The notes under the pieces are model-generated. The model worked only from the letters and a program-made list of their open reading frames with translations, ran no database searches and was not told the DNA's origin. Below, piece by piece: positions 3,001 through 18,193 of a DNA stretch of 34,737 nucleotides. The translations under genes and the position numbers were made by a program. Origin of the DNA: Bacteroidales bacterium (GTDB lineage Bacteria; Bacteroidota; Bacteroidia; Bacteroidales; M50B96); assembly GCA_018401015.1 (NCBI GenBank), contig JAGYLP010000019.1, positions 1-34,737 of the forward strand, given 5' to 3'. Numbering within the stretch: the first letter of the stretch is position 1; each line of letters begins with the position of its first letter.

Positions 3001-6000
3001 TCTGATGATGTACTGTATAATCCCTTCTGGGTCGATAGTACCTTTAGTCAGCTAAGTCCGGTTGAAGTGACAGGTGATCCGAATGGTAATGCTGAGTTTG
3101 AAGCACCTGGAACGAATGTGTCCGGAACCTTCCAAACCGCGGGTACGCTTTCAATTACCTATATTAATGATGAGCCTGCTGGGCAACAAACCAAAAACAG
3201 TTCAAATTTCGGTTCTAACTATGAGATTCTGGAGGGATATTGGGAAGTAGAAAATACCACCGGTAGCGTAGTTACGGTTGATCTTAGTTTCGACTTGAGC
3301 AACAAAACCGGCTTGAAGAATTTGAAGCGTGTTCTTCTGCTTTCAAGAGAGTATAATGCTAGCAACCCCAATGTATGGACGCTAAAGGGTGCCGCCGACG
3401 TAATTGATGGTCTTGAGCTAACTTGGGAAGGTCTTGATATAGCGGCTTACTCAACTTATGAGTTTGCGGTTGCGAATGGCGATCAAGTCGATATCGAAGT
3501 AGTTCGAACCGCTTGCGAAAGCTATGATGTAGTGCTTAAACCAACGGTCGATATTACGAATGGGACCATTAGTAATATCCAGTTTACGCTCAAGTGGGAT
3601 AGCTCATCTGCACCTGCAATCACCTTCAACAATGCCAATGCATCTGTTGAACAGCAAGGGTCCAATGCAATCTCTGGTGATTATACCTATGCAACCTTTG
3701 CGGCAGCACCTTTAAGTTCTTCGTCATTATTAAATGCAGGAACAACAGTACTTACCTTTACGCACAATCAAACAGGTTCGGGTACGGGTAGTTTTACCAT
3801 TATGGCAGATGATGATAGTTATGCTACCCCTGGCAATGTTTTCTATGTGGAAGTTGGTGGGACCGAATACACTGGAATGAATACCGCCAATGCTGAGGAT
3901 GTACCTTATGGTAAATGCGAAGTGAGTATTGCAAGCTTTACTGTTACTAATAAAACTTATGATGGTAATACAACGGCAACATTCTCATCAGAGCCAAGCC
4001 TTGCCGGAGTAATTGGAAGTGATGAGGTTAGCGCTACTGGTTTGTCGGCAGTTTTTAGCAATAAAAATGCGGGTACCGGCAAACTCGTTAGTTTGGAAGA
4101 TAATAATAATTCCAATTTAACTAATAACCTGGAAGGGGCAAACCTTGAAAAATACACACTTGTATCCATCGCTGCCACTACCACGGCTGATATAACTCCT
4201 AAAGAGTTAACAGCAAGTATAAGCGGTAATCCAACAAAAGTGTACGACGGCACCACAGTTGCTACCCTCAGTTCAGCTAATTATTCAATGCAAACAGATG
4301 TTGGCTCAGAAAGTATCCTGATTACCAAGACTAGTGGTACGTATGCAATCGCCGGTGCAGGAACACGCATTGTAACCGTGGAGCTCGACAATACGCTTCC
4401 CACAGCCGATTTCGCAGCGCAAGGGGCTACTTTGTTGTCGAATTATTCCTTACCTACTTCTGCCACAGGCAATGGCACTATTACTAAAGCTCCGCTTACC
4501 GTAACTGCCGACGATAAGTCCAAAGTTTACGATGGCGTGGTTTTCTCTCCTTTCACTGCTAGTTACAGTGGATTCGTGAATAATGAAGGAACTGAAGTTT
4601 TAGTGGGAAGCTTAACCTTTAATGGCAATGCAGTTGACGCAACCGCTGTTGAATCCTATACCATTACCCCAGTAGGGTATACGGCAGATAACTACGCTAT
4701 CACTTATGTGGATGGTACCTTAACCATTAGTCCGGTTAGCTTTGCTCTCAAAACCTTCCTTCAAGGAATGTTCGATGCAACAAGTGGTGCCTTATCTACT
4801 AGCTTACGCTCGAAAAACCAAGTGCCCATTGCTCATCCATACACAGGTGCACCCTGGAACTATTCCGGTACAGCAGAGAACTATGCTGTTATTGGCGATA
4901 TTCCTGCAAACGCAGTGGATTGGATTCTGGTAGAATTCCGCGGTGATAATAACGAAAGTCTAGGTAAGGCTGCGGGCATGCTTCGTGCTAATGGTAGCCT
5001 CGATGTGCTTGTTAGTGCTGCTAATGTGAAAGCTGGTAGTGAATATGATCTGATTCTTTATCATCGTAATCACTTGCCAATTCGTATCGAGAACGTTACT
5101 GCTCCTCTTACTGTCCGAAAAGACTTAACCACTACTAATTCAACCGGTGGAATACAGCTAGGTGCGGATGCTCCTTATGGAATGGTTGCGGGGAATGTTA
5201 ATCCGGATAATCGCTTGCAATATTCTGGTCCTGGGAATGACCGAGGTCCTATCCTTGCAAAAATCCTTGCCAATGGCGGAAGTGGTTTTGCTGATGTATA
5301 TACTGGAGAACCTGGATTTTACTTCCTGGAAGATGTGAATGCCGATGGTACGATTAGCTACACTGGTGATAACAATGACCGGGGTATTATCCTTACCAAT
5401 CTGGGCTCTTTAACCAACAACCAGCAATTGAATGCGATTTACTATACGCCGGTTGATGGAAATCAGGCTAAGATTAAAGCTCGAAACGATGGTCCTATAG
5501 GTATCGACTGGTTGGGTAGTGAGTTAGTTTTAGCCCCCGAATACGATGTTCCCGGCACTTTGTTGGATAATATCCAGTTCACCCTGGCTTGGGATGCCGA
5601 TGATTCCGATGTTACCTCGATTGTTGAGAGCTTTGAATCCGATTATGGATTATTACCACAGGGCGAAGCGCTCAATATTGAAGGAGTAATGCATCAGACT
5701 TTCGTAAGCTTAGCTCTGAATAGACTTCCCGAAGTTTGGAATGCAGGTGCTACGATTAGTATTATGCGATTCGACGAGTCTATAGCCGATAGGGTTTGGA
5801 TTGCCGATAATTTCTACACTGAGTTGAACAACGGAATGTACTATGTTTCACTGCGAGGCGAAGACCAAACCGGTAGTGTTAAGATTGGTTCCGATGTCAA
5901 CGAAGCAATGCAGTTGGGGGACTTAACGATGACTGCTTATCCAAATCCGGCACAATCCGGTCAGATTAAGCTTGCTTTCTCGGCTGTAACCGACACACCA

Positions 6001-6291: not shown

Positions 6292-6489
6292 ATGATTGAT
6301 TCTATGATAACCAGGCTGATTCTTTTCTGGCTCTTTGTATTGGGCACTTCTTGCCTTGGGAGCAGTGCATTCGGTCAGTCGATACCACAACCTCCTATTT
6401 GGCAGGAAAGTTCTGCTAGCAATGGAAATACAGCAGGCATAAGTTTCAGTGTTCAGCCACTACACAGGAAGGAGATTTGCTTCTCTTAG
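6292..6489 (+). CDS. N-terminal fragment of frameshifted giant T9SS protein (piece 1 of 3)
   Basis: ATG 6292 starts a convincing signal peptide, a hydrophobic run around ILFWLFVLGTSCLG ending near SSAFGQS. The reading frame continues as mature protein to about 6458 and then breaks. Downstream, the natural continuation (TTQEGDLLLLVISFEK) lies in another frame from nucleotide 6459. A single missing base near 6457-6459 explains the shift. The residues from 6459 to the stop at 6489 are out-of-frame readthrough. Restoring one base here and one near 8640-8700 gives a single protein of 1,855 residues ending at 11857. The gene is either a recent pseudogene or carries two sequencing/assembly errors. 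Confidence 0.75.
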   Translation: MIDSMITRLILFWLFVLGTSCLGSSAFGQSIPQPPIWQESSASNGNTAGISFSVQPLHRKEICFS

Positions 6490-8729
6490 TAATTTCCTTC
6501 GAAAAAGGATTATTGAATATCATATCCCCTTCTATCGGTTGGAGTCCAATCATTATCAGCTCCAATACCACCGATGTGGGGTTAGCTGTTTATTACAAAC
6601 GAGCCGATGCAAATGATGCTGGAGGGAACACGTATACCTTTCATTCTAATTTGTTTGAATCGTGGTCGGCTGTTGTGTCAAGGATAACACAGACCGATGC
6701 ACTCGATCCTATTCAAAATATATCCATCAGTTTAGGACAAGGAGGTTTAGCTACCTTTTCCGGGATTGGAACCAATAAGCCACAAACACTTATCATGTCC
6801 CTGTTGGCTCATCAAGCGGATGTTACTTATGAGGCTTTCCCTACCACACCTGCTAATACGAGCTTTCGATATAACGAGTCTCGCCCCGATTTAAGTAACC
6901 TTTTGTTTACTTATTTGCTCGAAACACCCACCTATTCCGGGAATAAAACGGTTCAAACGATCCCTGCAACCACCTCGCGATATATTGCCATGCAGTTGGC
7001 AATTAATCCATGTTATACTCCTGAAATAACAACGCAACCTGTTTCGAATGAGATTACTTATGGTGAAACAGCAACCTTTGAGGTTGAAGCGATAGGAACC
7101 GGATTAACTTATCGTTGGCAACGCGATAACGGGAATGGTTTTGAAGATTTGGCCGAATCCGATCAATGGAACGGCGAAGAGACGGCCTCTTTGGAAATTA
7201 TCCGTCCGGGAGTTGAATGGAATACCTATTCCTTGCGTTGTGAGGTGAACGGATCATGTGGAAATCTCATTTCGAGTACGGTAACACTGAGTGTTGCCCC
7301 CAAGTCCATTACGATACTGCCAGAGAGCAATCAGCAAAAAACTTACGGTTCATCCGATCCGGGAAACTACTTATTTCAAAGTCAACCGAACTTGCTTACT
7401 GGCGATTCCTATTCAGGATCAATCGGACGCGAGTCTGGGGAAAATGTAGGAACCTATCCATATACTTTGAATAGCCTCAGCGCTGGAGATAACTATGAAT
7501 TAAGCATGAGTGAATCGGCTCCAATTTTCACTATTGTAAAGCAGAGCTTAACCATTCAAGCCAAGGATGCTACCAAAGGCGCCAATGCTCCCGATCCTGC
7601 CTTTTCATCAACCTTTAGTGGATTTGTTTTTAATGAAACCATTCAAACCCTTGGGGGTGAATTAGTCTATATCCGTGCTCCAGGTATCAATCCTGGCACC
7701 TATGCTATTACTCCTTCAGGATTAAGCTCCATGAATTACGAATTGGTGTATTTAGACGGTAGCCTAACAATACTCGCAGCTCCAGAAACCGTTTATGTCG
7801 ATGCTCAATGGCTTAATCAGGATTATTTCAATGAGATTGAACCAAACAGAATTTATGGATATAATGCTTTTTCCGGAATTCAGGAGGCTATAAATGCGGT
7901 AGCCACTGGTGGAACGGTGTTAGTGTATTACGGAACCTATAGCGAGAATTTGCTTATCGAAAGGCAAAATTTGAACATCCAAGGCATTTCAAATCTTAAT
8001 TCTGATTTTCCTGTAGTAATCGGTGGGAATAACAACCCTACCTGGAACATCGAGGCTGATGGTGTCGAACTATCTGGTTTTGAAGTCAAGCACAGCAATT
8101 TGGGAATAGGTGTTTTAGCCCAAAATTCAACCCTACTAACTTTAGAGAATTTGCTTTGTTCGGAGGTGAGTCAGGCCATTGCTTTAATCGATATGAGCGA
8201 GGTTGATCTACTTTCTACCTCTGTAACTGGGGCGTCGGAGTCGGCCGTTTATGTGCAGAATGGTAGCCAAATTAGTTTAGAAGACAATATTTTTCAAACA
8301 AACCAATTGGGCGTTGAAATTAGTGGAGCAAATCAAGGAATTGTATTAAGTGGCAATGCATTCCTAAATAATTTGGGTTTAAGCCTTCAGTCGACAGGAG
8401 GGACAGAGATTGATGCTGAATCGAATCATTGGGGAAGTATCGACTATGCTGATGTTGCTTCTGAGGTTTCAGGACTAATCGATTTCGATCCCTGGTGTAA
8501 TGCCGATTTCACCCGGTGTGGCTATACCGAGACTTCAGGTATCTACAATGAAACCCAAGACCGATACTACATCAGCTGGCAGGCAGCTATCGATGATTCC
8601 GATCCACAGGATGTTATTCGACTTAGTGGTAGTTCGGTCGGCGTGTATCTACCGCCAATGCCGGAGGCCTCGTTTTTAAGATTGGAACTCCCATCGGTTG
8701 TTTTAATCTCGATGGTAATGTCGAATTAA
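6477..8729 (+). CDS. Middle fragment of frameshifted giant T9SS protein (piece 2 of 3): Ig-like, MBG and beta-helix modules
   Basis: This frame has no plausible start of its own; coding sequence enters from about 6459. It encodes an N-terminal beta domain (GDLLLLVISFEKG to about 7010), then an Ig-like domain (ITTQPVSNEITYGETATF ... YRWQRDN, ~7020-7290). Two MBG modules follow (QKTYGSSDPGNYLF, and LTIQAKDATKGANAPDPAFS; ~7300-7775). A right-handed beta-helix region then begins with GIQEAINAVATGGTVLVYYG (~7875-8450). After about 8640 the translation becomes unlike the family and stops at 8729. In the next frame the sequence resumes as AGGLVFKIGTPIGCFNLDGN, a dockerin-like motif. A one-base deletion between about 8635 and 8700 is therefore likely. 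The module order parallels the upstream giant protein, so the two are paralogues. Confidence 0.8.
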   Translation: MLLLVISFEKGLLNIISPSIGWSPIIISSNTTDVGLAVYYKRADANDAGGNTYTFHSNLFESWSAVVSRITQTDALDPIQNISISLGQGGLATFSGIGTNKPQTLIMSLLAHQADVTYEAFPTTPANTSFRYNESRPDLSNLLFTYLLETPTYSGNKTVQTIPATTSRYIAMQLAINPCYTPEITTQPVSNEITYGETATFEVEAIGTGLTYRWQRDNGNGFEDLAESDQWNGEETASLEIIRPGVEWNTYSLRCEVNGSCGNLISSTVTLSVAPKSITILPESNQQKTYGSSDPGNYLFQSQPNLLTGDSYSGSIGRESGENVGTYPYTLNSLSAGDNYELSMSESAPIFTIVKQSLTIQAKDATKGANAPDPAFSSTFSGFVFNETIQTLGGELVYIRAPGINPGTYAITPSGLSSMNYELVYLDGSLTILAAPETVYVDAQWLNQDYFNEIEPNRIYGYNAFSGIQEAINAVATGGTVLVYYGTYSENLLIERQNLNIQGISNLNSDFPVVIGGNNNPTWNIEADGVELSGFEVKHSNLGIGVLAQNSTLLTLENLLCSEVSQAIALIDMSEVDLLSTSVTGASESAVYVQNGSQISLEDNIFQTNQLGVEISGANQGIVLSGNAFLNNLGLSLQSTGGTEIDAESNHWGSIDYADVASEVSGLIDFDPWCNADFTRCGYTETSGIYNETQDRYYISWQAAIDDSDPQDVIRLSGSSVGVYLPPMPEASFLRLELPSVVLISMVMSN

Positions 8730-8740
8730 GTGAAGACGAT

Positions 8741-11700
8741 GTGCTTATCTACGACATTTTAGGCGACCAAGCTTGTTCGACGCACGATTTGCTCCAAGTT
8801 AGCGGTGTTTTTGATGCAGGTGGAGCCTCAATACAAATCATGAATTATGATTTTAATCCGATCGAAGGAGCCATTTTCCCCATTGTGCAGTCGGGCAGTT
8901 TTATCGGCAGCTTCGATTCGGCTAATCTTCATTCGGCCGAGCATTTTTATTCACTCGACTTGAATAATAATGAGTTGCGCCTCATTAGTTTGGCGGCCTT
9001 CAAAATCGATTTTGCTATCTACGAACTGGGTTGTGGTAGTTTTGAAGTTAGGCTTAAACCGAATCATAACGTAGAGTTAGATGGAAGCCCCGAGTTAACC
9101 AACTTGCAGTTCACATTGAAGTATCCTGCAACCTCTGGAACAATGAGTTTTGTTCCAGAGAATCCATACGCTCTTGTTGTTGGTCAGCAAGTAACCTATG
9201 AGTCGGCTTTTCGCATGGCTACCTTTTTTGCCGTTGATATTCCTGGAACCGAGTGGTTGGCAAACGAAGAGTATGTTGTGCTACGTTTTTCGCACAATCA
9301 GGAGGGTAGTGGTACGGGCAATCTTCTTTTTGTTGAGGATTCCGACCCATATATTGCTTATGCCGCCAATGCAGGTTATAGCGTAGAACGCTATGCCGAA
9401 TATTTGGGAGCCGATGTTACTGGATTAGTTTATCATGTGCCCTCCGCGTCAAGCTTTGATGCTTGCCCGGTTTGGAACGAAACCCAAGACCGCTTTTATT
9501 ACACCTTAGCCGATGCTTTAACCGATCCGGTTCTACAGCCAAACGATGAGATTCGCTTGAATAAGGCAGGAGTTTACCCTGCTTCTTCGCTCGCTGTCGA
9601 AACAGCTGGGTTAAGAATCTATGCTGAAGAGGAAGGGTTTGTGTTCGACGGAGGGAATCAAGCCGATCAGGTGTTGTGGATTAAGGCCGATGGGATTCAG
9701 TTGGAAGGATTTGAAGTGCGAAACGCTGGAGACGACCCGGGCGCTGTCGGAATTCTTATTGATGAAGTAGATGACTGCGTATTAAATAATCTCACCCTAG
9801 ATCAAAATCAGAATGGAGTTTTGATTCAAGGTGGGCAGAATCACAGCATCAATGCATGCACCTTTTCTTCCAATAGTCAGGTAGGGCTTGAATTGAATTC
9901 TACCAGCGGCTCGCAGCTTGATTGCTCAATCTTTGACCAAAATGGAAAGGTTGGTCTGAAGCTCGTTTTTGCAAGCAATATTAATATCGCTGGGAATCGT
10001 TTTCAGGGACATATCGGCAGCCTTGATGAGGATGGAATAGCAATAGCGTTGATGGTTTCCTCCAATAATATTATTCAAAATAATCGTTTTGAAAGTAATG
10101 AAATTGGGATGCACTATACAGGAGTCCTATCTAATTATAGTAACTCAAACGTTGTCTCATCCAATTTCTTTGATGATAATCTTGCACATGTCGAAGTAAC
10201 AGATAATGGTTCAGCCAATGTTGTCGTAACCTGTAATTATTGGAATGATAGTAATCCTAATGTAACTGATTCTAAGCTGATTGGAGGTAATATAATATGG
10301 TCTCCGCGCTTGGTTTCCAGCGATGAGTTATCTTTAGAAGAATTGCCAGAAGAGGCTTGTTCCACGGGATTTTATCCTTCCGGCCTGTGCCGAACACCGC
10401 TTCAGCTAAAACTTTTCCTACAGGCAAATTTTGATCCTGCCGTTAATGAAATGCATACCTTATTAGCATCTGCCGGAGTAGTTCCTCTTAGCCAGCCATA
10501 CAATACTGAGCCTTGGAATTACAATGGTTCGGAAAGTTTCGAAGAGCTTCCTACTGATGCAGTGGATTGGGTGTTGGTTGAATTGCGCTCCGACGATACC
10601 GAAGCTTATCAGGTTATAGATCGTTCAGCAGGAATGCTTCTGAAGGATGGAACCGTTTCTGTTAGTCTCGATGCCGAAGCGATAAAGGATTTTTTCTTGG
10701 TTGTTTATCATCGGAATCATTTACCTCTAATGTCGCGCGAATTACTGAGCCCGGAAGAAATCTTTCCTTTTGATTTTACTCAGTTATCCTCCTGTTATGG
10801 TCCCCAACTAACCCCGCCTGTAAGTCCCGGAATGATACTAACTGAGCAACCGGAGCAGATTGGAATGATCGCAGGGAACACGAATCAGAATAATGAACTT
10901 AAATACTCCGGTTTGGGAAATGATCGGGGGGAGATTCTTACACAAATTACCAACCTAACCAGTAGTTCCGACCTGAATACCGTTTACACTGACGGAGGTT
11001 ATTTTGCGGAGGATGTGCTGTTAAACAATGATTTGCGTTACAGTGGAGCACTCAACGATCGAGCAATTATTCTCTCAAACCTTTCAGCTTTAAGTGGTAC
11101 CGCGCTTCTAAATGCTATTTACACCTCTCCGGTACCGTTTCAGAATCAATCCAAATCATGGTCCGAACCAGATGGTCCCATCCGAATTCGACTAGTAGAT
11201 AATCGTATTGAACTAACGACTAATATACCCATCCGTAATGGTAAACTGGATAATCTGCAGTTTAGCCTTAGTTTGCCATCCGACAGGGCACTACCATTAA
11301 GTGAGTTAGAAACTTACACGAGTCAATTTGGATTAAGCAGGCAGGATGCTGTTTACCAGTCAAATATGCGACCTTACATCACGTTTGTGTCGGTGCAGTT
11401 AACTGATTTGCCTGAAAATTGGTTGCCAAATGAACCCCTGGTTGTGGCAGCTTTCGAAGCTAATATTCAATCGCTTGGCCTGCAGCTGGCCAATGCAGAA
11501 GAGGTAAGGCATTTTAACGGCGATTACTATGTGTCGTTGTATGGAAAGAATGTAACAGGAGGAATCATCCAACCCGAACAGGAAATGCCCACCGACCCTT
11601 TCGAGGACATGAAAGTCTTCCCTAATCCTTCGGCTACAGGTGTCATCAATATTGTCCTCCCTGAATTATCACACCCTGGCTCAGTTAAGTTAGAGCTATT

Positions 11701-11857
11701 TGATATGGCTGGGGTGAGGGTTTGGAGTAAATCTCAAAACGAAGGGTCAAAATACTTAAGGATTAATTTTGCAACCCTGCGGCCTGGTGTTTACAATCTT
11801 CAAATAATCACACCAGAACGAACCCTTAAAAAGCAACTAGTCCTGACAAATCACTAG
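8741..11857 (+). CDS. C-terminal fragment of frameshifted giant T9SS protein (piece 3 of 3)
   Basis: The first available start codon is GTG 8741, but it falls inside a dockerin-like repeat (FNLDGNVELSEDDVLIYDIL) whose reading frame extends upstream to about 8650. This is therefore a continuation, not an independent gene. Next come a cohesin-like domain (~9010-9400), a beta-helix block with many Asn-rich rungs (~9530-10290), the domain containing VYHRNHLPL (~10390-10740), two dockerin-like stretches with the GLGNDRGEIL/GALNDRAIIL pattern (~10850-11090) and a second cohesin-like region. The last ~80 residues are a T9SS sorting domain (VFPNPSATG ... RPGVYNLQI). The following gene begins 12 nt after the stop. 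Confidence 0.85.
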   Translation: MLIYDILGDQACSTHDLLQVSGVFDAGGASIQIMNYDFNPIEGAIFPIVQSGSFIGSFDSANLHSAEHFYSLDLNNNELRLISLAAFKIDFAIYELGCGSFEVRLKPNHNVELDGSPELTNLQFTLKYPATSGTMSFVPENPYALVVGQQVTYESAFRMATFFAVDIPGTEWLANEEYVVLRFSHNQEGSGTGNLLFVEDSDPYIAYAANAGYSVERYAEYLGADVTGLVYHVPSASSFDACPVWNETQDRFYYTLADALTDPVLQPNDEIRLNKAGVYPASSLAVETAGLRIYAEEEGFVFDGGNQADQVLWIKADGIQLEGFEVRNAGDDPGAVGILIDEVDDCVLNNLTLDQNQNGVLIQGGQNHSINACTFSSNSQVGLELNSTSGSQLDCSIFDQNGKVGLKLVFASNINIAGNRFQGHIGSLDEDGIAIALMVSSNNIIQNNRFESNEIGMHYTGVLSNYSNSNVVSSNFFDDNLAHVEVTDNGSANVVVTCNYWNDSNPNVTDSKLIGGNIIWSPRLVSSDELSLEELPEEACSTGFYPSGLCRTPLQLKLFLQANFDPAVNEMHTLLASAGVVPLSQPYNTEPWNYNGSESFEELPTDAVDWVLVELRSDDTEAYQVIDRSAGMLLKDGTVSVSLDAEAIKDFFLVVYHRNHLPLMSRELLSPEEIFPFDFTQLSSCYGPQLTPPVSPGMILTEQPEQIGMIAGNTNQNNELKYSGLGNDRGEILTQITNLTSSSDLNTVYTDGGYFAEDVLLNNDLRYSGALNDRAIILSNLSALSGTALLNAIYTSPVPFQNQSKSWSEPDGPIRIRLVDNRIELTTNIPIRNGKLDNLQFSLSLPSDRALPLSELETYTSQFGLSRQDAVYQSNMRPYITFVSVQLTDLPENWLPNEPLVVAAFEANIQSLGLQLANAEEVRHFNGDYYVSLYGKNVTGGIIQPEQEMPTDPFEDMKVFPNPSATGVINIVLPELSHPGSVKLELFDMAGVRVWSKSQNEGSKYLRINFATLRPGVYNLQIITPERTLKKQLVLTNH

Positions 11858-11869
11858 AAATATCCTGAC

Positions 11870-14308
11870 ATGAAAACGAAAAGTGAATGGCTAATTTCGT
11901 ACTTATCAATATCCTCCATACCCAAGTTAACCCTAATGCAACAAATTAGTATGCAGCGCTTATTAACTTCTTATCGCCTAATTCACATTAACTTCCTGTT
12001 AATGATCTTCCTTTCAGGAAATGCTTCTTTCATTTCTGCCCAAAGCATCGACATGGGCTTGTTTGAAGGTTCTTCCAATACGGTTGAAGTTCGAATGAAA
12101 ACGAATTATACGATACCAGGAAATCTCACTTTATCGGCAGCAATCGTAACCCTACGGTGGACTGACCCAACCGTTTCTTTTACAACTAATTATATTTATC
12201 CGTTCTTTTTAGCTGAACAGGGAGGAGTTCAATCTTCCGGCGACTATTATTATCAGGTTTTTGCCGCTGTTCCAATTCTACCGCTCGGTTCCGATTTCGT
12301 TTCAGGGACCGAAAGGCTCCTCATGTCGGTTACCCTTACCAACGGGTTATGTGCTACAATTGAAATAGCAGAGGATGCATTTGCTTTAGCGAATAATGCA
12401 ATTCCATATATCGAGGTGCAAGGTGCCAATCGAACGGGTGGATTATATAAGCCTAGCCTTAATCTAAACTCTCAACCTGGCACCTTATCAAGAGATCCGT
12501 TGGAAGGAATCGTATACAGTGGTGAAAGCATTGGTAACCTCAGTTTAAATGATCCATATGGGAATGTGCTGCAATGGCAAAAGCAGTTGAATGATGGGAA
12601 TTGGACTGACATTGCTCATACAGGGAGCAGTTATAGCGAGGCTTCAACTGATTATGGAGTGATGAGCTATCGGGTAGTGGTACAGAAACCAGGCTGCGAT
12701 GTTGTCTATTCGAACGAAGTCGATGTGTCGGTAATTGGTGGAAATATTTGGGAGGGCTCAATAAGTGCCGATTGGTTCGATCCATTCAATTGGTCGAAAG
12801 GTGTTGTGCCAGGAGAATACCTCCAAGCTGTCATTCCCTCAGTAGCTACTCAATATCCCATAATCAATCCTGGATCGGTTGCAAACTGTTACGATTTAGT
12901 CTTTTATTTGAACGCAATGCTAACCATTAGCGCTAATGCCAAGTTAGATGTTTTGAATCTGCTTAGTGGAAATACGCTTACCGAAGATTATCAGGTATTT
13001 ATTCAGTCCAATGCTGCCGGAACGGGTTCCTTAATCCATCAAGGTAACTATGGTGATGTTCAGGCCGAAGTGCAGCGGTACCTAACTGGTGGTTGGGGCG
13101 CCTGGGATGCGGGCTGGCATCACATTAGTTCTCCAGTCTTCAATCAGCTTATCGCTGATTTTGAAACAACTGGTGTCGGGAATGGCTACGATTTTTATGG
13201 ATGGGATCAGGAATCCGATACCTGGATTAATTATAAAGGAGGCAATTTTGAAGCATGGAATGGTGGGCTTGAGTTTAATTTAGGTCAGTCGTATCTTATT
13301 TCATACGAGCAAACGTTTGTTAATCAATCTTTTAAAGGGGTTTTGAATGTCGATGATGTAATAGTAACGGATTTAACTTACTCGCCCAGTCAAACGCATA
13401 CCGGATGGCATTTATTAGGAAATCCATTTTCAAGCGCTTTGCAATGGAATGGCGAGGATTGGAACATTCCCTCAACTATGGCTGAGAATGCCAAAATTTG
13501 GAATTCCCAAAATAAGTCATACACCGATGTGCTTCCAGGTGAGGTAATTCCTATGGCTCAGGGTTTTACAGTTGCTGTAGATGGATTTACCGAATCATTT
13601 ACCATTCCTGAGAAGGCACGACTACACGATGCAACCCCTTATTTTAAAAGTTCCATAGAGAAACTTCTCTCCATCACTGTTTACGATGAAAACAAACATG
13701 CGCTGCAAACTGTCCAGATTGTTAAAAACCCGATGTCAACTATGGGATATGATTTTAAAACAGATGCTCATTTTTTGCCAGGTTATGCTCCTCAACTCTA
13801 CTTCAATGTAGAACAGGAACATGTATCTACTAATTCAATTCCTCATTTGTTGGAAGAGCTTACATTCAATCTAGGGTTTATTAAAAATCAATTTGACGAG
13901 TTTGTAATGGAGTTTGAATACTCCGAGGATATCCGCGAAATCTGGTTGCGCGATCTGAAAACTCAAACCGAACATCCAGTCAAGTTAAACCGGTACTTTG
14001 CGTTTTCAGCCGATGAGTTTGATAGTCCCGAGCGATTTGAACTTTACTTTAAATCCCTTGGAGAATCAATATCCCCAAGTGCCGATTTCCCTTCGCTTTA
14101 TGCTTCGAAATCTACGGTTTATCTCAATGGATTTTTTGGGTTGACCTCGATGCAAGTATTCGATACTGGTGGCAAATTGGTTTATACAAATCAACTTCAG
14201 GCATCTGGTCAGGATCAACTTAAGCTGTCATTAGCTCCAGGCCTATATTTATTAAATACGCGCGATATAAATCACACGGTCAATGAGAAAATCTTTATTC
14301 AACCCTAA
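11870..14308 (+). CDS. T9SS-secreted protein with cohesin-like and Ig-like domains
   Basis: An 812-residue protein. ATG 11870 gives an unusually long N-terminal extension before the hydrophobic core INFLLMIFLSGN and the probable cleavage near FISAQS. ATG 11936 or ATG 11951 would give a more ordinary signal peptide. Residues ~60-200 match the cohesin-like module of the two giant upstream proteins (SGDYYYQVFAAVP, IPYIEVQGANRTG). An Ig-like stretch follows (LQWQKQLNDGNWTDI, ~240-290), then a large beta domain typical of Bacteroidota secreted proteins (HHISSPVF ... GWHLLGNPFSSAL, ~410-560). The last ~75 residues look like a T9SS tail (MQVFDTGGKLVY, APGLYLLN). It lies 12 nt behind the frameshifted giant gene, so the two are probably co-transcribed. 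The ligand is unknown. Confidence 0.9.
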   Translation: MKTKSEWLISYLSISSIPKLTLMQQISMQRLLTSYRLIHINFLLMIFLSGNASFISAQSIDMGLFEGSSNTVEVRMKTNYTIPGNLTLSAAIVTLRWTDPTVSFTTNYIYPFFLAEQGGVQSSGDYYYQVFAAVPILPLGSDFVSGTERLLMSVTLTNGLCATIEIAEDAFALANNAIPYIEVQGANRTGGLYKPSLNLNSQPGTLSRDPLEGIVYSGESIGNLSLNDPYGNVLQWQKQLNDGNWTDIAHTGSSYSEASTDYGVMSYRVVVQKPGCDVVYSNEVDVSVIGGNIWEGSISADWFDPFNWSKGVVPGEYLQAVIPSVATQYPIINPGSVANCYDLVFYLNAMLTISANAKLDVLNLLSGNTLTEDYQVFIQSNAAGTGSLIHQGNYGDVQAEVQRYLTGGWGAWDAGWHHISSPVFNQLIADFETTGVGNGYDFYGWDQESDTWINYKGGNFEAWNGGLEFNLGQSYLISYEQTFVNQSFKGVLNVDDVIVTDLTYSPSQTHTGWHLLGNPFSSALQWNGEDWNIPSTMAENAKIWNSQNKSYTDVLPGEVIPMAQGFTVAVDGFTESFTIPEKARLHDATPYFKSSIEKLLSITVYDENKHALQTVQIVKNPMSTMGYDFKTDAHFLPGYAPQLYFNVEQEHVSTNSIPHLLEELTFNLGFIKNQFDEFVMEFEYSEDIREIWLRDLKTQTEHPVKLNRYFAFSADEFDSPERFELYFKSLGESISPSADFPSLYASKSTVYLNGFFGLTSMQVFDTGGKLVYTNQLQASGQDQLKLSLAPGLYLLNTRDINHTVNEKIFIQP

Positions 14309-14385
14309 ATTGAGTAACACGAAAGTAAGTTGATCGAGTAAAGCGGTATCGTCTGAAGAACAAAAACTTTGTAAAACAAAATTAT

Positions 14386-14631
14386 ATGAAATGCTATAAA
14401 ATCATCTGCCTGCTGATTCTCTTCTGCTTTATCCAGCCCGCTCTTTGGGCTCAATCTGGAGGAATAGGTACTCCTCCTCCACCTCCCTTTGAGCACGGCT
14501 CTTCGTCCGATCTTACACCTGGAGCGCAGGGCGGGGGCGCACCAATTTCAGGGAGTGTTTACTGGCTAACTGCGCTAGGAATCCTATATGCCGGTGGTTC
14601 CTTAATCAGGTTGCGGTTTCGTGAAAATTAA
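14386..14631 (+). CDS. Small signal-peptide protein with C-terminal membrane anchor (PID-CTERM-like)
   Basis: An 81-residue protein. It has an N-terminal signal peptide (IICLLILFCFIQPALWAQ, cleavage after about residue 22). A Gly/Pro-rich mature region follows, with the run TPPPPPF (about 29-35), then a short PISGS motif (about 53-57). A single hydrophobic segment (YWLTALGILYAGG) and a basic tail (RLRFREN) end it. This architecture matches, from memory, the very small Bacteroidota proteins carrying a PID-CTERM-like sorting signal. The exact PID motif is replaced by PIS, so the family assignment is tentative. It may be a processed surface peptide. It follows the T9SS genes by 77 nt and is closed by a terminator at 14696. 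Confidence 0.75.
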   Translation: MKCYKIICLLILFCFIQPALWAQSGGIGTPPPPPFEHGSSSDLTPGAQGGGAPISGSVYWLTALGILYAGGSLIRLRFREN

Positions 14632-15100
14632 TTGCCTCCAATCTTGAATATTTTTCTCATCATTAACTGCATACTGTAGTTTATTTTATTGCTTTAAACA
14701 CCTCTTTGAGGTGTTTTTTGTTAAATAATGGCGAGTCGTAGTTCAGTGTCATTTGAAAGTGTACTTTAGGTGAAGGTTTAGCCCCCCCCAAATGAGCCAA
14801 TTTATGAAGGATATACCGAAATTCTTGTTACTAGTTATTGTGTTACTTCGCTATTAATCAAATGTGTGTAAGCATGAAGCTTATGATTATAAGTAATCTT
14901 ACTCATGGGTTTGTGTGGTTACTATTACATACAAAAGCATGAAAATACTTCGCTTTGTGTTGTAGTATGTTCCTAAATTGTAAGGGAATTTGATTGACAT
15001 GTTTATGGAAATTTACACGTGATTACTTTAAAATCTTAACAGGTTTTAGAGTAGTACGGTCGAGAAATAAGCTAATTACTTACCCTAAATGTACTAATCT
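14632..15100 (+). other. 469-bp AT-rich intergenic region
   Basis: No credible gene is seen on either strand. Apart from the terminator at 14696-14719 it contains an eight-C homopolymer (14782-14789) and AT-rich sequence. I found no exact TAnnTTTG element before the regulator gene at 15101, so its promoter is not assigned. Confidence 0.6.
14696..14719 (+). terminator. Rho-independent terminator closing the surface-protein cluster
   Basis: A perfect 9-bp stem, AAACACCTC (14696-14704) and GAGGTGTTT (14708-14716), closes a TTT loop and continues into a T run to 14719. The A-run on its left arm could also let it act from the other side, but no convergent gene is present. Confidence 0.85.
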
Positions 15101-15736
15101 ATGACGACCCCAGTTCTTTTACTTGTATCCGGTTTTCCTTTGTGGAATTACGCGGTAAAAACCCTTTTGCACGATCATTTGGCAGATGTTTCATTTTTAG
15201 AGGTTAAAACCGCCATTGAGGCGGCTAAATTGATTAAAGAAAAACAAGTTGATGCAGTTGTAATGCTGCCTGTTTCACTAGAGGAAAATTGGATGGAAGC
15301 ATTAACCCGAATGCTTTCTAACCATAATTTACCTATTCTAATGATGGGTAAATCGAATAACTTAACTTTCATAGTTCGTATGCTTCAGTCAGGAGCTAGT
15401 GGATATATTTCCTATCCAGCCGAGGTGAAAGAACTCGTGAATGCTGTTCAACGGGTAATTAAAAATGAACGTTTTATCTCCTCCGATTTAGCAGAGCAGA
15501 TTGTTATTAATCAAATTGATGAGAAAAATGAGGACCCTCATCACTTCTTGTCTAACAGAGAATATCAAGTGATGATAGAATTAGCTAAAGGAAAGAAACT
15601 AAAGGAAATTGCCGATAGTAATTTCCTGTCCGACAAATCGATTAGCACCTATCGCTCGCGAATCCTCAAAAAGCTTGGATTGGAGAATAATTACCAGCTT
15701 ATTCGGTATGCGCTGCAACATGGCCTGATCGATTAA
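15101..15736 (+). CDS. LuxR-type regulator with degenerate receiver domain
   Basis: A 211-residue protein with the length and layout of a NarL/FixJ-type response regulator. Residues 1-125 follow the receiver fold (VLLLVSGFPLW; VDAVVML; GASGYISYPAEVKELVNAVQ). The usual acidic pair is Ser10-Gly11, the phospho-acceptor Asp is Leu56, the Thr/Ser position is Gly83, and the conserved Lys is lost near 104-105. Residues ~148-211 form a LuxR helix-turn-helix (LSNREYQVMIELAKGKKLKEI, then KSISTYRSRILKKLGL). It probably binds DNA as a dimer without phosphorylation control. It stands alone, between the terminator at 14696 and the repeat region, with no neighbouring histidine kinase. Targets are unknown; the adjacent surface-protein genes are a possibility. 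Confidence 0.88.
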   Translation: MTTPVLLLVSGFPLWNYAVKTLLHDHLADVSFLEVKTAIEAAKLIKEKQVDAVVMLPVSLEENWMEALTRMLSNHNLPILMMGKSNNLTFIVRMLQSGASGYISYPAEVKELVNAVQRVIKNERFISSDLAEQIVINQIDEKNEDPHHFLSNREYQVMIELAKGKKLKEIADSNFLSDKSISTYRSRILKKLGLENNYQLIRYALQHGLID

Positions 15737-15745
15737 GAGGCTTTT

Positions 15746-15793
15746 GGCTCTTAGCTCTTGGCTCTTGGCTCTTGGCTCTTGGCTCTTGGCTGG
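15746..15793. repeat. Heptanucleotide tandem array (GGCTCTT)
   Basis: Six heptads occupy 15746-15787: GGCTCTT, AGCTCTT and then four further GGCTCTT, followed by a partial copy GGCTGG. The array starts 9 nt after the regulator's stop codon. Confidence 0.9.
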
Positions 15794-16016
15794 TTCGTTG
15801 TTGCTAATTTTTCCTTGAACCAGAATGAATGCCACGCGCCGGGGGTCGCGCGGCAGCTCGTTGTTGCTGGCTTTCGCTTCATCTCCTCATCGCCTTTTCG
15901 CTAAGTCGCCCATTCGCCCATTCGCCCTCTGGGTGACCCCCGTTCAGCATCGGTCGGGAAAAGGGCAAAGAGAGGGTGTTGAGATTTCCATTGGAGGCCG
16001 CGGAGGTTTAAAAGAA

Positions 16017-16319
16017 CGCTAAGGTTCGCGCAAAGTGCGCAGAGGACCCGCAAAGGTCGCGGAGTTTTACGCTTGAACCAGAATGAATGCCACGCGCCGG
16101 GAGTCGCGCGGCAGCTCGTTGTTGCTGGCTTTCGCTTCATCGCCTCTTCGCCTCATCGTCTTTTCGCTAAGTCGCCCAAATCGCCTCATCGCCTCAAGGG
16201 CGCTAAGGTTCGCGCAAAGTACGCAGAGGACCCGCAAAGGTCGCGGAGTTTTACGCTTGAACCAGAATGAATGCCACGCGCCAGGAGTCGCGCGGCAGTT
16301 GGTTGTTGCTGGCTTTCGC
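16017..16319. repeat. 184-bp direct repeat
   Basis: A block beginning CGCTAAGGTTCGCGCAAAG occurs at 16017 and 16201, exactly 184 bp apart. It runs through GGACCCGCAAAGGTCGCGG into the palindromic element at 16073 and 16257, also 184 bp apart. The spacer of the first unit contains octamer-like CATCGCCT runs. A related octamer run (TCGCCCAT) lies at 15906-15927. Confidence 0.85.
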
Positions 16320-16330
16320 CACTTGGCTTT

Positions 16331-16503
16331 TTCGCCTCTAGGCTAGTTCGTTGTTGCTTATTTTTCCTTGAAACAGAAAGAAGCCACGCGCCGGGAGTCG
16401 CGCGGCAGCTCGTTGTTGCTGGCATTCGCCTCTTCGCTCTTTCGCCTCTAGGCTAGTTCGTTGTTGCTTAATTTTCCTTGAATTAGAAAGATGCCACGCG
16501 CCG
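16331..16503. repeat. 110-bp direct repeat, second copy truncated
   Basis: TTCGCCTCTAGGCTAGTTCG begins at 16331 and again at 16441. The palindromic element inside recurs at the same 110-bp offset (16368 and 16478). The second unit is cut short by the TTTTCAC heptad array. A related copy of the GTTCGTTGTTGCTTA segment lies at 15792-15814. Confidence 0.8.
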
Positions 16504-16504
16504 A

Positions 16505-16546
16505 TTTTCACTTTTCACTTTTCACTCTTCACTCTTCACTCTTCAC
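16505..16546. repeat. Heptanucleotide tandem array (TTTTCAC/TCTTCAC)
   Basis: Three TTTTCAC units (16505-16525) followed by three TCTTCAC units (16526-16546), six heptads in all. It forms the right-hand border of the repeat region. Confidence 0.9.
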
Positions 16547-16560
16547 CTCCTTAAGCGACT

Positions 16561-16593
16561 TATCAACAGTTGTTTGTCAGTCTATTGTTGATA
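16561..16593. promoter_or_regulatory. Inverted repeat upstream of the dcw promoter
   Basis: Perfect 8-bp arms TATCAACA (16561-16568) and TGTTGATA (16586-16593) are separated by 17 nt. The left arm with its preceding T reads TTATCAACA, one base from a DnaA box, but the mismatch is at an important position. An operator for an unknown regulator is equally possible. Confidence 0.35.
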
Positions 16594-16657
16594 GTAAGTT
16601 GTTGTTGTAAAGGTAATTGTGTTTTGTGGGGTTGAGTTATTAAAATCTTGTTAACAC

Positions 16658-16688
16658 TTGTATGGTGTTTTATTAACAGGTATATTTG
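16658..16688 (+). promoter_or_regulatory. Bacteroidota-type promoter of the mraZ/dcw operon
   Basis: TTG (16658-16660), a 20-nt spacer and TATATTTG (16681-16688) match the Bacteroidota consensus TTG-N17-23-TAnnTTTG. Transcription would begin around 16694-16697, leaving a leader of about 85 nt before ATG 16781. TTAACA occurs twice around the spacer (16651-16656 and 16673-16678), together with a small inverted repeat AACAC/GTGTT (16653-16657 and 16665-16669). Confidence 0.65.
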
Positions 16689-16696
16689 TGTCATTG

Positions 16697-16735
16697 TCTG
16701 ACAGAGGGTGGAATTAAGAGTGAGAAAGTGTCAGA
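16697..16735 (+). promoter_or_regulatory. Inverted repeat in the predicted mraZ leader
   Basis: Perfect 7-bp arms TCTGACA (16697-16703) and TGTCAGA (16729-16735) are separated by 25 nt. Between and beside them GTG recurs at 16708, 16720, 16728 and 16738. MraZ is known to repress its own operon through spaced TGGG-type repeats. These GTG steps are irregular (12, 8 and 10 nt), so a role as the MraZ operator is only a guess. Confidence 0.3.
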
Positions 16736-16780
16736 TTGTGTAAAATGTTCTATTTTTACCTGAGCGAAACAGGCATTAGT

Positions 16781-17236
16781 ATGAGTATAGCATTCATAGG
16801 TGATTTCCCAGCAAAAGTCGATGAAAAGGGAAGAATCGTGCTGCCAGCCTCCTTCAAAAAAAAGATGGATAAGGCCGGGATGGATACCTTCATTGCCAGA
16901 AAATCGCACTTCGCCAATTGTCTTAAACTCTATCTCGAAGACGAATTCCTCAAAGAACATGAACTCCTCGAAGCAAACGCAGACCCCTTCAACGGAGAAC
17001 ATGAATCTATCCTCCGGGAAAAAAATAAAAACGTCTTTGAAATTCATCTGGCCGAAAACGGACGAATGACCATCCCCAACCGATTCCTTAAAATGATCGG
17101 TGTCGATAAGGAAGTGGTCATCGCCGGGCAGGTCCGAACCATCGAGATCTGGGATAAAGAGCAATACGATCAGGTAAATGACAAAGACATCAACTTCAAA
17201 GTCATTACCGGGGCAACTTCGCCGGGCAAAGAGTAA
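16781..17236 (+). CDS. mraZ: MraZ, transcriptional regulator of the dcw cluster
   Basis: A 151-residue protein, the usual MraZ length. It has two SpoVT/AbrB-like halves, the first with DEKGRIVLP (residues 14-22) and the second with ENGRMTIP (92-99). Each normally carries DxxxR; in the second the Asp is replaced by Ala91. ATG 16781 gives the canonical N-terminus MSIAFIGDFPAKVDEKGR; in-frame starts further upstream add residues unlike the family. MraZ binds DNA as a ring-shaped oligomer and represses its own operon. As first gene of the cluster it probably sets expression of everything downstream. Confidence 0.96.
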   Translation: MSIAFIGDFPAKVDEKGRIVLPASFKKKMDKAGMDTFIARKSHFANCLKLYLEDEFLKEHELLEANADPFNGEHESILREKNKNVFEIHLAENGRMTIPNRFLKMIGVDKEVVIAGQVRTIEIWDKEQYDQVNDKDINFKVITGATSPGKE

Positions 17237-17293
17237 TCCGCCCGGTTTCTTGTGGAATAATCCACTCGTAAAGCATAGTTAAACCAGTTTAGA

Positions 17294-18193
17294 ATGACCG
17301 CATACCACGTACCTGCACTGCTCAATGAATCAATCGATGCACTCGCTATCGACCCCAATGGAATCTATGTAGATGCTACCTTCGGAAGTGGTGGACATTC
17401 ATACGCTATCCTCGAAAAACTCACCAAAGGAAAGCTAATCGCTTTCGACCAGGACGCCGATGCGCTCACAAACCTTCGGGAACATCCAAACCTCCTCTTC
17501 GTTCAGCATAACTTTAAATACATCCGCCAATTTCTCCACTTCCTGGATATTAAGCATATCGACGGAATCCTCGCCGACCTCGGTGTGAGCTCCCATCATT
17601 TCGATGAAGCCGAACGTGGCTTCTCCATCCGATTCGACGGACCGCTCGATATGCGCATGAATAAAAATGCATCGATTACAGCAGCTACCGTCCTCAATGA
17701 ATATCCTACCTCACTCTTACACCCCATCTTCAAACAATACGGCGAAGTAGAAAATACGGGTAAACTGGTGAAACTCATCGATGAACGTCGTAAAGCAAAA
17801 CCATTCGATACTATCGCCGATTTTATCGAGGCGATTCAGTCGCTTATTCCTAAACGTTTGGAGAATAAATACCTGGCTAAAGTTTTTCAGGCTCTGCGCA
17901 TGGAGGTGAACCAGGAATTGCCTGCCTTAAAAGACCTCTTGATGCATAGCGTTGACCTGCTTCGCCCCGGCGGACGCTTGGCCATTATCACCTACCATAG
18001 TTTGGAAGACCGTTTGGTCAAAAATTTTATTCGAAGTGGAAACTTCGAAGGCCATACCGAAACCGATTTCTATGGAAATGTCTTATCTCCCCTCGAAGCC
18101 ATTAACCGAAAAGTAATTCAACCCTCCGAGGAAGAAATTGCCCGAAATAACCGGGCTCGTAGTGCTAAACTTCGAATCGCTCAGAAACGATGA
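17294..18193 (+). CDS. rsmH: 16S rRNA m4C1402 methyltransferase RsmH
   Basis: A 299-residue SAM-dependent methyltransferase. It opens with YHVPALLNESIDAL. The SAM-binding motif VDATFGSGGHS is at residues 26-36. The family signature DGILADLGVSSHHFDEAERG is followed by GPLDMRMN. The C-terminal part contains ITYHSLEDRLVKNF. It methylates N4 of C1402 in 16S rRNA, fine-tuning start-codon selection. It lies 57 nt after mraZ, and its TGA stop overlaps the ftsL ATG as ATGA. Confidence 0.97.
   Translation: MTAYHVPALLNESIDALAIDPNGIYVDATFGSGGHSYAILEKLTKGKLIAFDQDADALTNLREHPNLLFVQHNFKYIRQFLHFLDIKHIDGILADLGVSSHHFDEAERGFSIRFDGPLDMRMNKNASITAATVLNEYPTSLLHPIFKQYGEVENTGKLVKLIDERRKAKPFDTIADFIEAIQSLIPKRLENKYLAKVFQALRMEVNQELPALKDLLMHSVDLLRPGGRLAIITYHSLEDRLVKNFIRSGNFEGHTETDFYGNVLSPLEAINRKVIQPSEEEIARNNRARSAKLRIAQKR

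Follow-up and report, generated by a model that had tools for sequence, protein, structure and literature searches.

A tandem cluster of GC-rich palindromes upstream of mraZ in a Bacteroidales genome: a probable REP family of the Bacteroidota kind

The repeat island between the response-regulator gene and mraZ

The window (the whole stretch of DNA that was analysed, 34,737 nucleotides of a Bacteroidales draft genome) contains a repeat island of ~0.8 kb, located between two genes of the plus strand: a LuxR-family response-regulator gene (15101-15736, Pfam GerE and Response_reg) and mraZ (16736-17236, Pfam MraZ), the first gene of dcw, whose likely start (ATG 16781) was assigned by eye. Upstream of the response regulator, positions 6477-14308 are occupied by large ORFs, which encode beta-helix and MBG domains together with Por secretion tails.

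Between positions 15803 and 16503, a GC-rich palindrome unit of ~55 bp is present on the plus strand in four full copies and one truncated copy, with an approximate consensus of TTGAACYAGAATGAAT-GCCACGCGCCGGGAGTCGCGCGGC-AGYTCGTTGTTGC. The first-pass annotation had described five copies of a ~63-bp element: repeated copies are indeed there, but they are not five equal ones. The palindrome arms (GCCACGCGC...GCGCGGC) start at 15831, 16089, 16273 and 16383, with spacings of 258, 184 and 110 bp. The full copies were delimited from the sequence and by profile match, as follows: 15803-15881 (palindrome 15831-15854), 16061-16140 (palindrome 16089-16112), 16245-16324 (palindrome 16273-16296) and 16356-16433 (palindrome 16383-16405/6). 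The fifth copy (16466-16503) was delimited by profile match and ends abruptly inside the palindrome.

The units are embedded in tandem composites on the same strand. Two copies of a 184-bp composite (starts 16012 and 16196; 92% identity over the 143 bp compared) occupy 16012-16379, and a composite with a period of 110 bp (TRF: 2.2 copies, score 396) occupies 16256-16503; both direct repeats had been proposed earlier. Three short arrays were also delimited by TRF on the plus strand: GGCTCTT heptamers at one edge of the island (15739-15791), a degenerate TCGCC-type tandem repeat (16131-16195) and TTCACTC heptamers at the opposite edge (16507-16546). The GC content is 57% at 15831-16503 versus 34% at 16504-16780 and 45% in the whole window, which bears out the contrast with the AT-rich neighbouring DNA reported at first pass. 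From the end of the island to the likely mraZ start there are 278 bp (235 bp when the TTCACTC array is counted as part of the island), and the AT-rich stretch is intact. In G002, a genome of the same family, a different low-complexity repeat of the ACTGCCAACTGCCGACT type is found upstream of mraZ at the place of the island (locus L052, 960-1150).

A dispersed family and its islands

The draft genome that contains the window comprises 84 contigs with a total of 2,876,689 bases and is 99% complete. With the 689-bp island as BLAST query, 76 matches were obtained in this genome at E≤0.001; profile nhmmer gave 78 hits at E≤0.01 in the 34 sequences of this genome that were scanned, and a covariance model gave 65 matches at E≤1, 56 of them at E≤1e-3 (150 of 810 candidates scored). 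The model was built from 46 copies, and 46 of the 65 matches are the sequences used in building it. Nearly all of its genome-wide matches fall in loci already fetched with the BLAST query; three of the 65 (C1:145689, C26:21200 and C26:21258), together with a further match at E 0.2, were not in the initial set of loci and were added later. The further copies expected at first pass are therefore present, and a chance origin is untenable because they are dispersed through the genome. Two matches in C44 of G001 (E 0.7 and 0.8) are likely to be chance matches: they fall in a repeated stretch that has no palindrome.

Like REPs, the element is a short palindrome in many dispersed copies, and it is extragenic: copies lie in 36 gene gaps, while the 9 further hits inside ORFs of at least 130 aa were judged to be in ORFs made by the repeats themselves. 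The gap census used copies at E≤1e-3, and 12 of the 36 gaps were at contig edges, leaving 24 to be scored. These comprised 13 convergent, 10 tandem and 1 divergent gaps, versus 14, 54 and 25, respectively, among 93 background gaps (convergent enrichment: p 1.7e-4; 0.016 for gaps of at least 200 bp). Repeat-made ORFs shift some of the 24 gaps (L009 would be convergent and L011 tandem), L032 counts three times, and L021, which is just above the E threshold of the census, would be divergent.

Six nhmmer hits are incomplete, ending inside the unit no later than the loop (window 16466, L021, L022 2036, L026, L029 5495 and L037 2065). Truncated copies in L021, L022, L024 and L026 (near 2030-2150) are followed by a common AACGGTCAACC-like sequence, which may be a terminator or a further repeat. 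Two contig ends (L039 1-120 and L041 2050-2174) have more than 100 bp in common, including a minimal palindrome with AACC...GGTAGTT flanks, and perhaps represent a second subfamily or a segment duplication.

Other short-repeat modules accompany the copies in 29 of the 35 islands (copies plus 200 bp on each side), the exceptions being L014, L034, L037 (first island), L039, L041 and L029 (second island). Four modules reach 1.4-2.3 per kb within islands versus 0-0.08 elsewhere, a co-occurrence that is partly built in, because the query used for fetching itself contained modules. The 14 background stretches were taken at round coordinates on long contigs where BLAST had given no copy, so that their freedom from copies says nothing on clustering. 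The islands read as mosaics of degenerate short tandem repeats of the TTGGC, CGCAAAG, TCGCC, TTCAC and ATCCGTG types (for example L032 2140-2400).

TRF arrays with a period of at least 25 and carrying REP copies were found in 12 of the 34 sequences of this genome (the window, L009, L010, L014, L016, L017, L018, L022, L027, L032, L033 and L035); arrays of 26-bp period repeat one arm only, the 3' arm. Neighbouring copies less than 600 bp apart have the same orientation in 34 pairs and opposite orientations in 3, and are thus for the most part not the inverted doublets of REPINs. No empty insertion site was seen. The array pattern and the orientation bias are consistent with slippage or unequal exchange, the route of local multiplication already suggested at first pass, and the island at dcw looks like a local duplication of the ordinary kind.

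A wobble hairpin common to distant genomes and RAYT loci

Read on the minus strand, the element has the form (A/G)CT-GCCGCGCG-8 nt-CGCGTGGC, with one wobble at base pair 4: counted from the base of the stem, this pair is G.T on the minus strand and an A.C mismatch on the plus strand. The common plan consists of a 3-base foot, 1 base, a stem with G.T as its fourth pair, 6 more positions and a loop of 3-4 bases. Among 45 copies of this genome, the foot is ACT in 34, GCT in 8, AAT in 2 and ACC in 1, and the canonical GT[AG]G foot was not found 5' of the hairpin. Pair 9 is formed in 10 of the 45 copies (mismatched in 35) and pair 10 in 42. When folded as DNA, the minus strand did better than the plus strand in all three copies tried, with modest z-scores (window copies: -1.26 and -0.97 on the minus strand, -0.15 and 0.36 on the plus strand; L031: -2.63 on the minus strand). 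Pairwise identity among copies is 92-95% in the stem versus 72-81% in the flanks. Covariation within this genome was not significant (95.8% paired cells versus 95.6% in shuffled columns, with one compensatory cell), and its copies by themselves give no proof of structure.

No close relative bears the family. A 144-bp query on 30 relatives gave, besides this genome, one weak match (G004), which lies in the flank and is without palindrome; the covariance model, run on 295 genomes of the order, matched this genome and G223 only (1 of the 294 others). G223 holds further palindromes on the common plan.

The plan was searched in 393 genomes of the order with two patterns, both of which fix the arms: a wobble form (CCGCGCGN{3,12}CGCGTGG) and a paired form (CCGCGCGN{3,12}CGCGCGG). 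Each palindromic site was entered once, and the backward pattern was used as control. The wobble form gave 205 sites in 42 genomes (control 23), including 61 in G365, 46 in the genome of the window, 26 in G223, 9 in G218 and 7 in G361. The paired form gave 20 sites in 13 genomes (control 47) and none in the genome of the window, G365, G223, G218, G361 or G308, the genomes rich in the wobble form being without the paired form. G037 matched both patterns and both controls and was treated as noise, and about one fifth of the listed wobble places are chance-like. Without selection, 71 of the 92 wobble places listed in 41 other genomes have a middle of 7-8 bases, and 66 of these 71 (22 genomes) close with two complementary pairs (A-T, T-A or C-G). 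For 29 automatically returned loci of other genomes, at least one GCT foot was present in 12 of the 15 with complementary inner pairs, versus 1 of the 14 without. In 20 hand-picked loci of relatives (49 copies), the foot is GCT in 45 copies, and pairs 9 and 10 are complementary in 49 and 48 copies, respectively, a biased inner-pair count because the loci were picked after the matched strings had been seen. G297 has the loop of the window family (AC-TCCC-G), but with pair 9 formed. Where folding of the repeat had been proposed at first pass, single window copies did not fold remarkably; further copies and a conserved structure both exist, the structure being backed by comparison between genomes and not within this one.

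Some features of the relatives are noted here. G365 is the richest of the 393 genomes and carries tandem arrays of wobble hairpins spaced by ~50-70 bp (L220 2495-2833 and L221 2127-2433). A run of C immediately precedes the GCT foot in several relatives (L217 5147, L229 2482, L230 2435 and L235 2489). In G041 (L216 1879-4394), HEPN, nucleotidyltransferase and YoeB toxin genes lie in a stretch enclosed by two wobble hairpins in inverted orientation, and a GmrSD gene is found beyond it; here REPs edge a toxin-antitoxin and defence region. No match was obtained in named genomes (by exact pattern), viral contigs, plasmids or phages, in searches that possibly left out this genome and very near ones, and no description of the palindrome or of the plan was found in the literature passages retrieved by motif or by subject.

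RAYT genes adjoin such hairpins in relatives. Two near-identical RAYT genes of G218 (L217) lie next to wobble hairpins with the arms of the window family (CCGCGCG...CGCGTGG): in the first set, a hairpin at 3183 is followed by a gene at 3231-3791; in the second, a hairpin at 5147 is followed by a gene at 5195-5755 and an inverted hairpin at 5844. The gene product matches Pfam Y1_Tnp (1e-8) and the NCBIfam model of REP-associated tyrosine transposases (91.7 bits, cut-off 80). The clade to which it belongs is present at 14 loci, 13 of which came from 20 weak Y1 places that were fetched; all five members tested were above the cut-off of 80 of NF047646 (REP_Tyr_transpos; 91.7 to 103.4 bits). A hairpin with a single 5'G.3'T wobble was present within 500 bp of the gene in 11 of the 14 loci, and none was found in L244, L246 and L251. 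In total, the flanks of the clade contained 22 G.T, 3 T.G and 9 wobble-free hairpins, versus 0.1 in shuffles. In 13 of the 22 G.T hairpins, GCT begins six bases before the wobble G; the distance from wobble to loop is exactly six pairs in 13 and seven in 7. In L237 and L241, the wobble occupies a different pair and the foot is not GCT. Adjacency of a RAYT gene to arms of the window's type was seen in one genome only, G218. The flanks of the 24 Y1 genes first fetched in relatives held 7 G.T hairpins (none with a GCT foot), 1 T.G and 4 wobble-free hairpins; some of these genes are flanked by short palindromes unlike those of the window (for example L073, L082, L086, L089 and L056), and L072 and L087 had no flanking palindrome at the score used.

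YIH[QN]NP and NH[LIV]H are each found in most members of the clade; WQ is found in some, others having WR or WT. All three motifs of TnpA-REP subclass 2.6 (NH[LIV]H, WQ and YIH[QN]NP) are present only in L242, L246 and L250. Because WQ is restricted to some members and G218 has NHMH (with WR and YIHNNP), this subclass is the nearest published one, and membership in it is not proven. The closest solved chains, E. coli TnpA-REP 4er8 (E 0.007) and 2ec2 (E 0.009), are weak matches.

In the genome of the window itself, the TnpA-REP gene expected by the first-pass annotation was not found. PF01797 had no match there, while 46 of the 60 genomes searched (this one being among the 60) have it; an intact RAYT of the clade should have matched, because known members score 3.8e-9 to 8.4e-6 in the same search. 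An HMM of the clade gave nothing below E 0.99 in 457 kb of this genome, including the REP loci. With the transposase of G003 as query, the best match was at E 0.3, a weak test because NCBIfam places this protein among the IS200-like transposases and not the RAYTs. An HMM built from 24 ordinary Y1 proteins gave no hit and also missed the G218 RAYT, later found by Pfam; with PF04986 no informative result was obtained, the controls being silent as well. A small contig with a RAYT gene between REP clusters could be missing from the draft, in which 12 islands lie at contig edges. The family is apparently an orphan, with an altered foot and inner pair, and it is from the negative searches that it would be taken to have outlived its RAYT.

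Origin of the family and relation to known REPs

We consider the island to be, with a probability of roughly 0.7, a tandemly expanded cluster of a REP family of the Bacteroidota kind, which goes with a divergent RAYT clade nearest to the published TnpA-REP subclass 2.6. It is placed in this kind because the hairpins of relatives carry the same plan with complementary inner pairs and adjoin RAYT genes in G218. The REP-type non-autonomous element of the first-pass annotation, its local multiplication and its copies elsewhere are borne out, with two amendments: the ACT or GCT foot and the fixed G.T wobble of the stem set it apart from classical GTAG REPs, and the TnpA-REP gene that had been expected did not turn up in the searches of this genome. 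Compared with the RAYT-flanking hairpins, the arms and wobble are as in G218, and the foot and pair 9 deviate in most copies of this genome. From the relatives we infer that a RAYT may have spread the element. A RAYT of the clade would once have copied it through folded single-stranded DNA, with the foot and wobble read on one strand; the cognate gene would since have been lost, have degenerated or have escaped assembly. The islands would later have been enlarged mainly by slippage or unequal exchange, aided by the adjacent short repeats, and would have been tolerated in the 3' regions of genes.

It is conceivable, although unlikely, that no mobile element is involved: the palindrome would be one module among others in low-complexity intergenic DNA that arose by slippage, and the heptamer and CGCAAAG repeats would be the sites of the recombination or template switching that carries it from island to island. 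The density of other modules in 29 of 35 islands, the REP-bearing arrays (with one arm alone repeated at the 26-bp period), the 34 to 3 excess of direct orientation and the failure to find a RAYT in searches of this genome would all suit such an origin; however, six islands carry no other module, the co-occurrence is inflated by the query, and the recurrence of the same wobble plan beside RAYT genes, in distant genomes and among different neighbours, is left unexplained. The convergent enrichment (13/24 versus 14/93) and a stem better conserved than its flanks would also agree with a structured RNA or a 3' element, acting in the termination or protection of transcripts or as an insulator between dcw and the gene upstream of it. 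We regard this as improbable: there is no T run after the hairpin on either strand, Rfam had no match at E≤1 in 14300-17300 and gave just two tRNAs in 20 island loci, and mraZ is without the element in G002 (600 bp read upstream) and G003 (330 bp, all that its contig holds). REPs generally favour 3' regions, moreover. The absence of a T run likewise rules against an intrinsic terminator. A MITE moved by a DDE transposase via terminal inverted repeats might be short, non-coding, dispersed and located in gene-free DNA, as this element is, but it is very improbable here: no inverted repeat of at least 16 was found in 15400-16900, and what is conserved is a hairpin lying centrally between asymmetric flanks.

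For the REP cluster that we favour, the closest published parallel is found in the REPs of subclass 2.6 of Bacteroidetes, called atypical and identified by eye (PMC6006769). In the part of that report considered here, these share with the window family a weak secondary structure and the lack of a GT[AG]G foot and, as in the relatives, form hairpins next to RAYT genes and recur elsewhere in the genome; the rule of foot and wobble is not given in that part, and the window family differs in having mostly an ACT foot and no RAYT found. REPs of E. coli, as described in sections of PMC8266576, have in common with it an imperfect palindrome, an irregular stem pair, a conserved 5' foot and strand asymmetry, but they combine a GTAG foot with a double-mismatch bulge, whereas here a GCT or ACT foot is combined with a single G.T at pair 4. 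REPINs (PMC8049555, PMC3116915) are likewise non-autonomous REP elements tied to RAYTs, but are inverted doublets, unlike the neighbour pairs of this genome, direct in 34 of 37. The CGTC-tagged REPs (PMC3733652, in the portion consulted) likewise form a palindrome family that has no transposase dedicated to it, but their tag is another one, and the kind described here has a linked RAYT in relatives.

More tentatively, it is possible, if somewhat doubtful, that a GCT foot, G.T at the fourth pair, six further pairs and a loop of 3-4 bases make up the recognition code of a RAYT clade of Bacteroidota. Two modes use GTAG, with either a bulge or a perfect stem, and this would be a third; the window family would then be an escaped variant (ACT foot, mismatch at pair 9) expanding without transposase. 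By analogy, the wobble and GCT may play the parts of the stem irregularity and foot that are required by E. coli TnpA-REP, according to the text seen of PMC8266576.

A role of the island at dcw is not supported, and the REP cluster reading needs no function there; for the dcw operon itself, the island is ordinary. In this genome, a population of REPs seems to have survived its RAYT; in the passages considered of PMC8049555, such a case is named as one that its model of REPIN persistence does not address. A plan as simple as this one (foot, fixed wobble and arm length) would make REPs of the subclass 2.6 type searchable, and would make RAYT recognition testable with few oligonucleotides.
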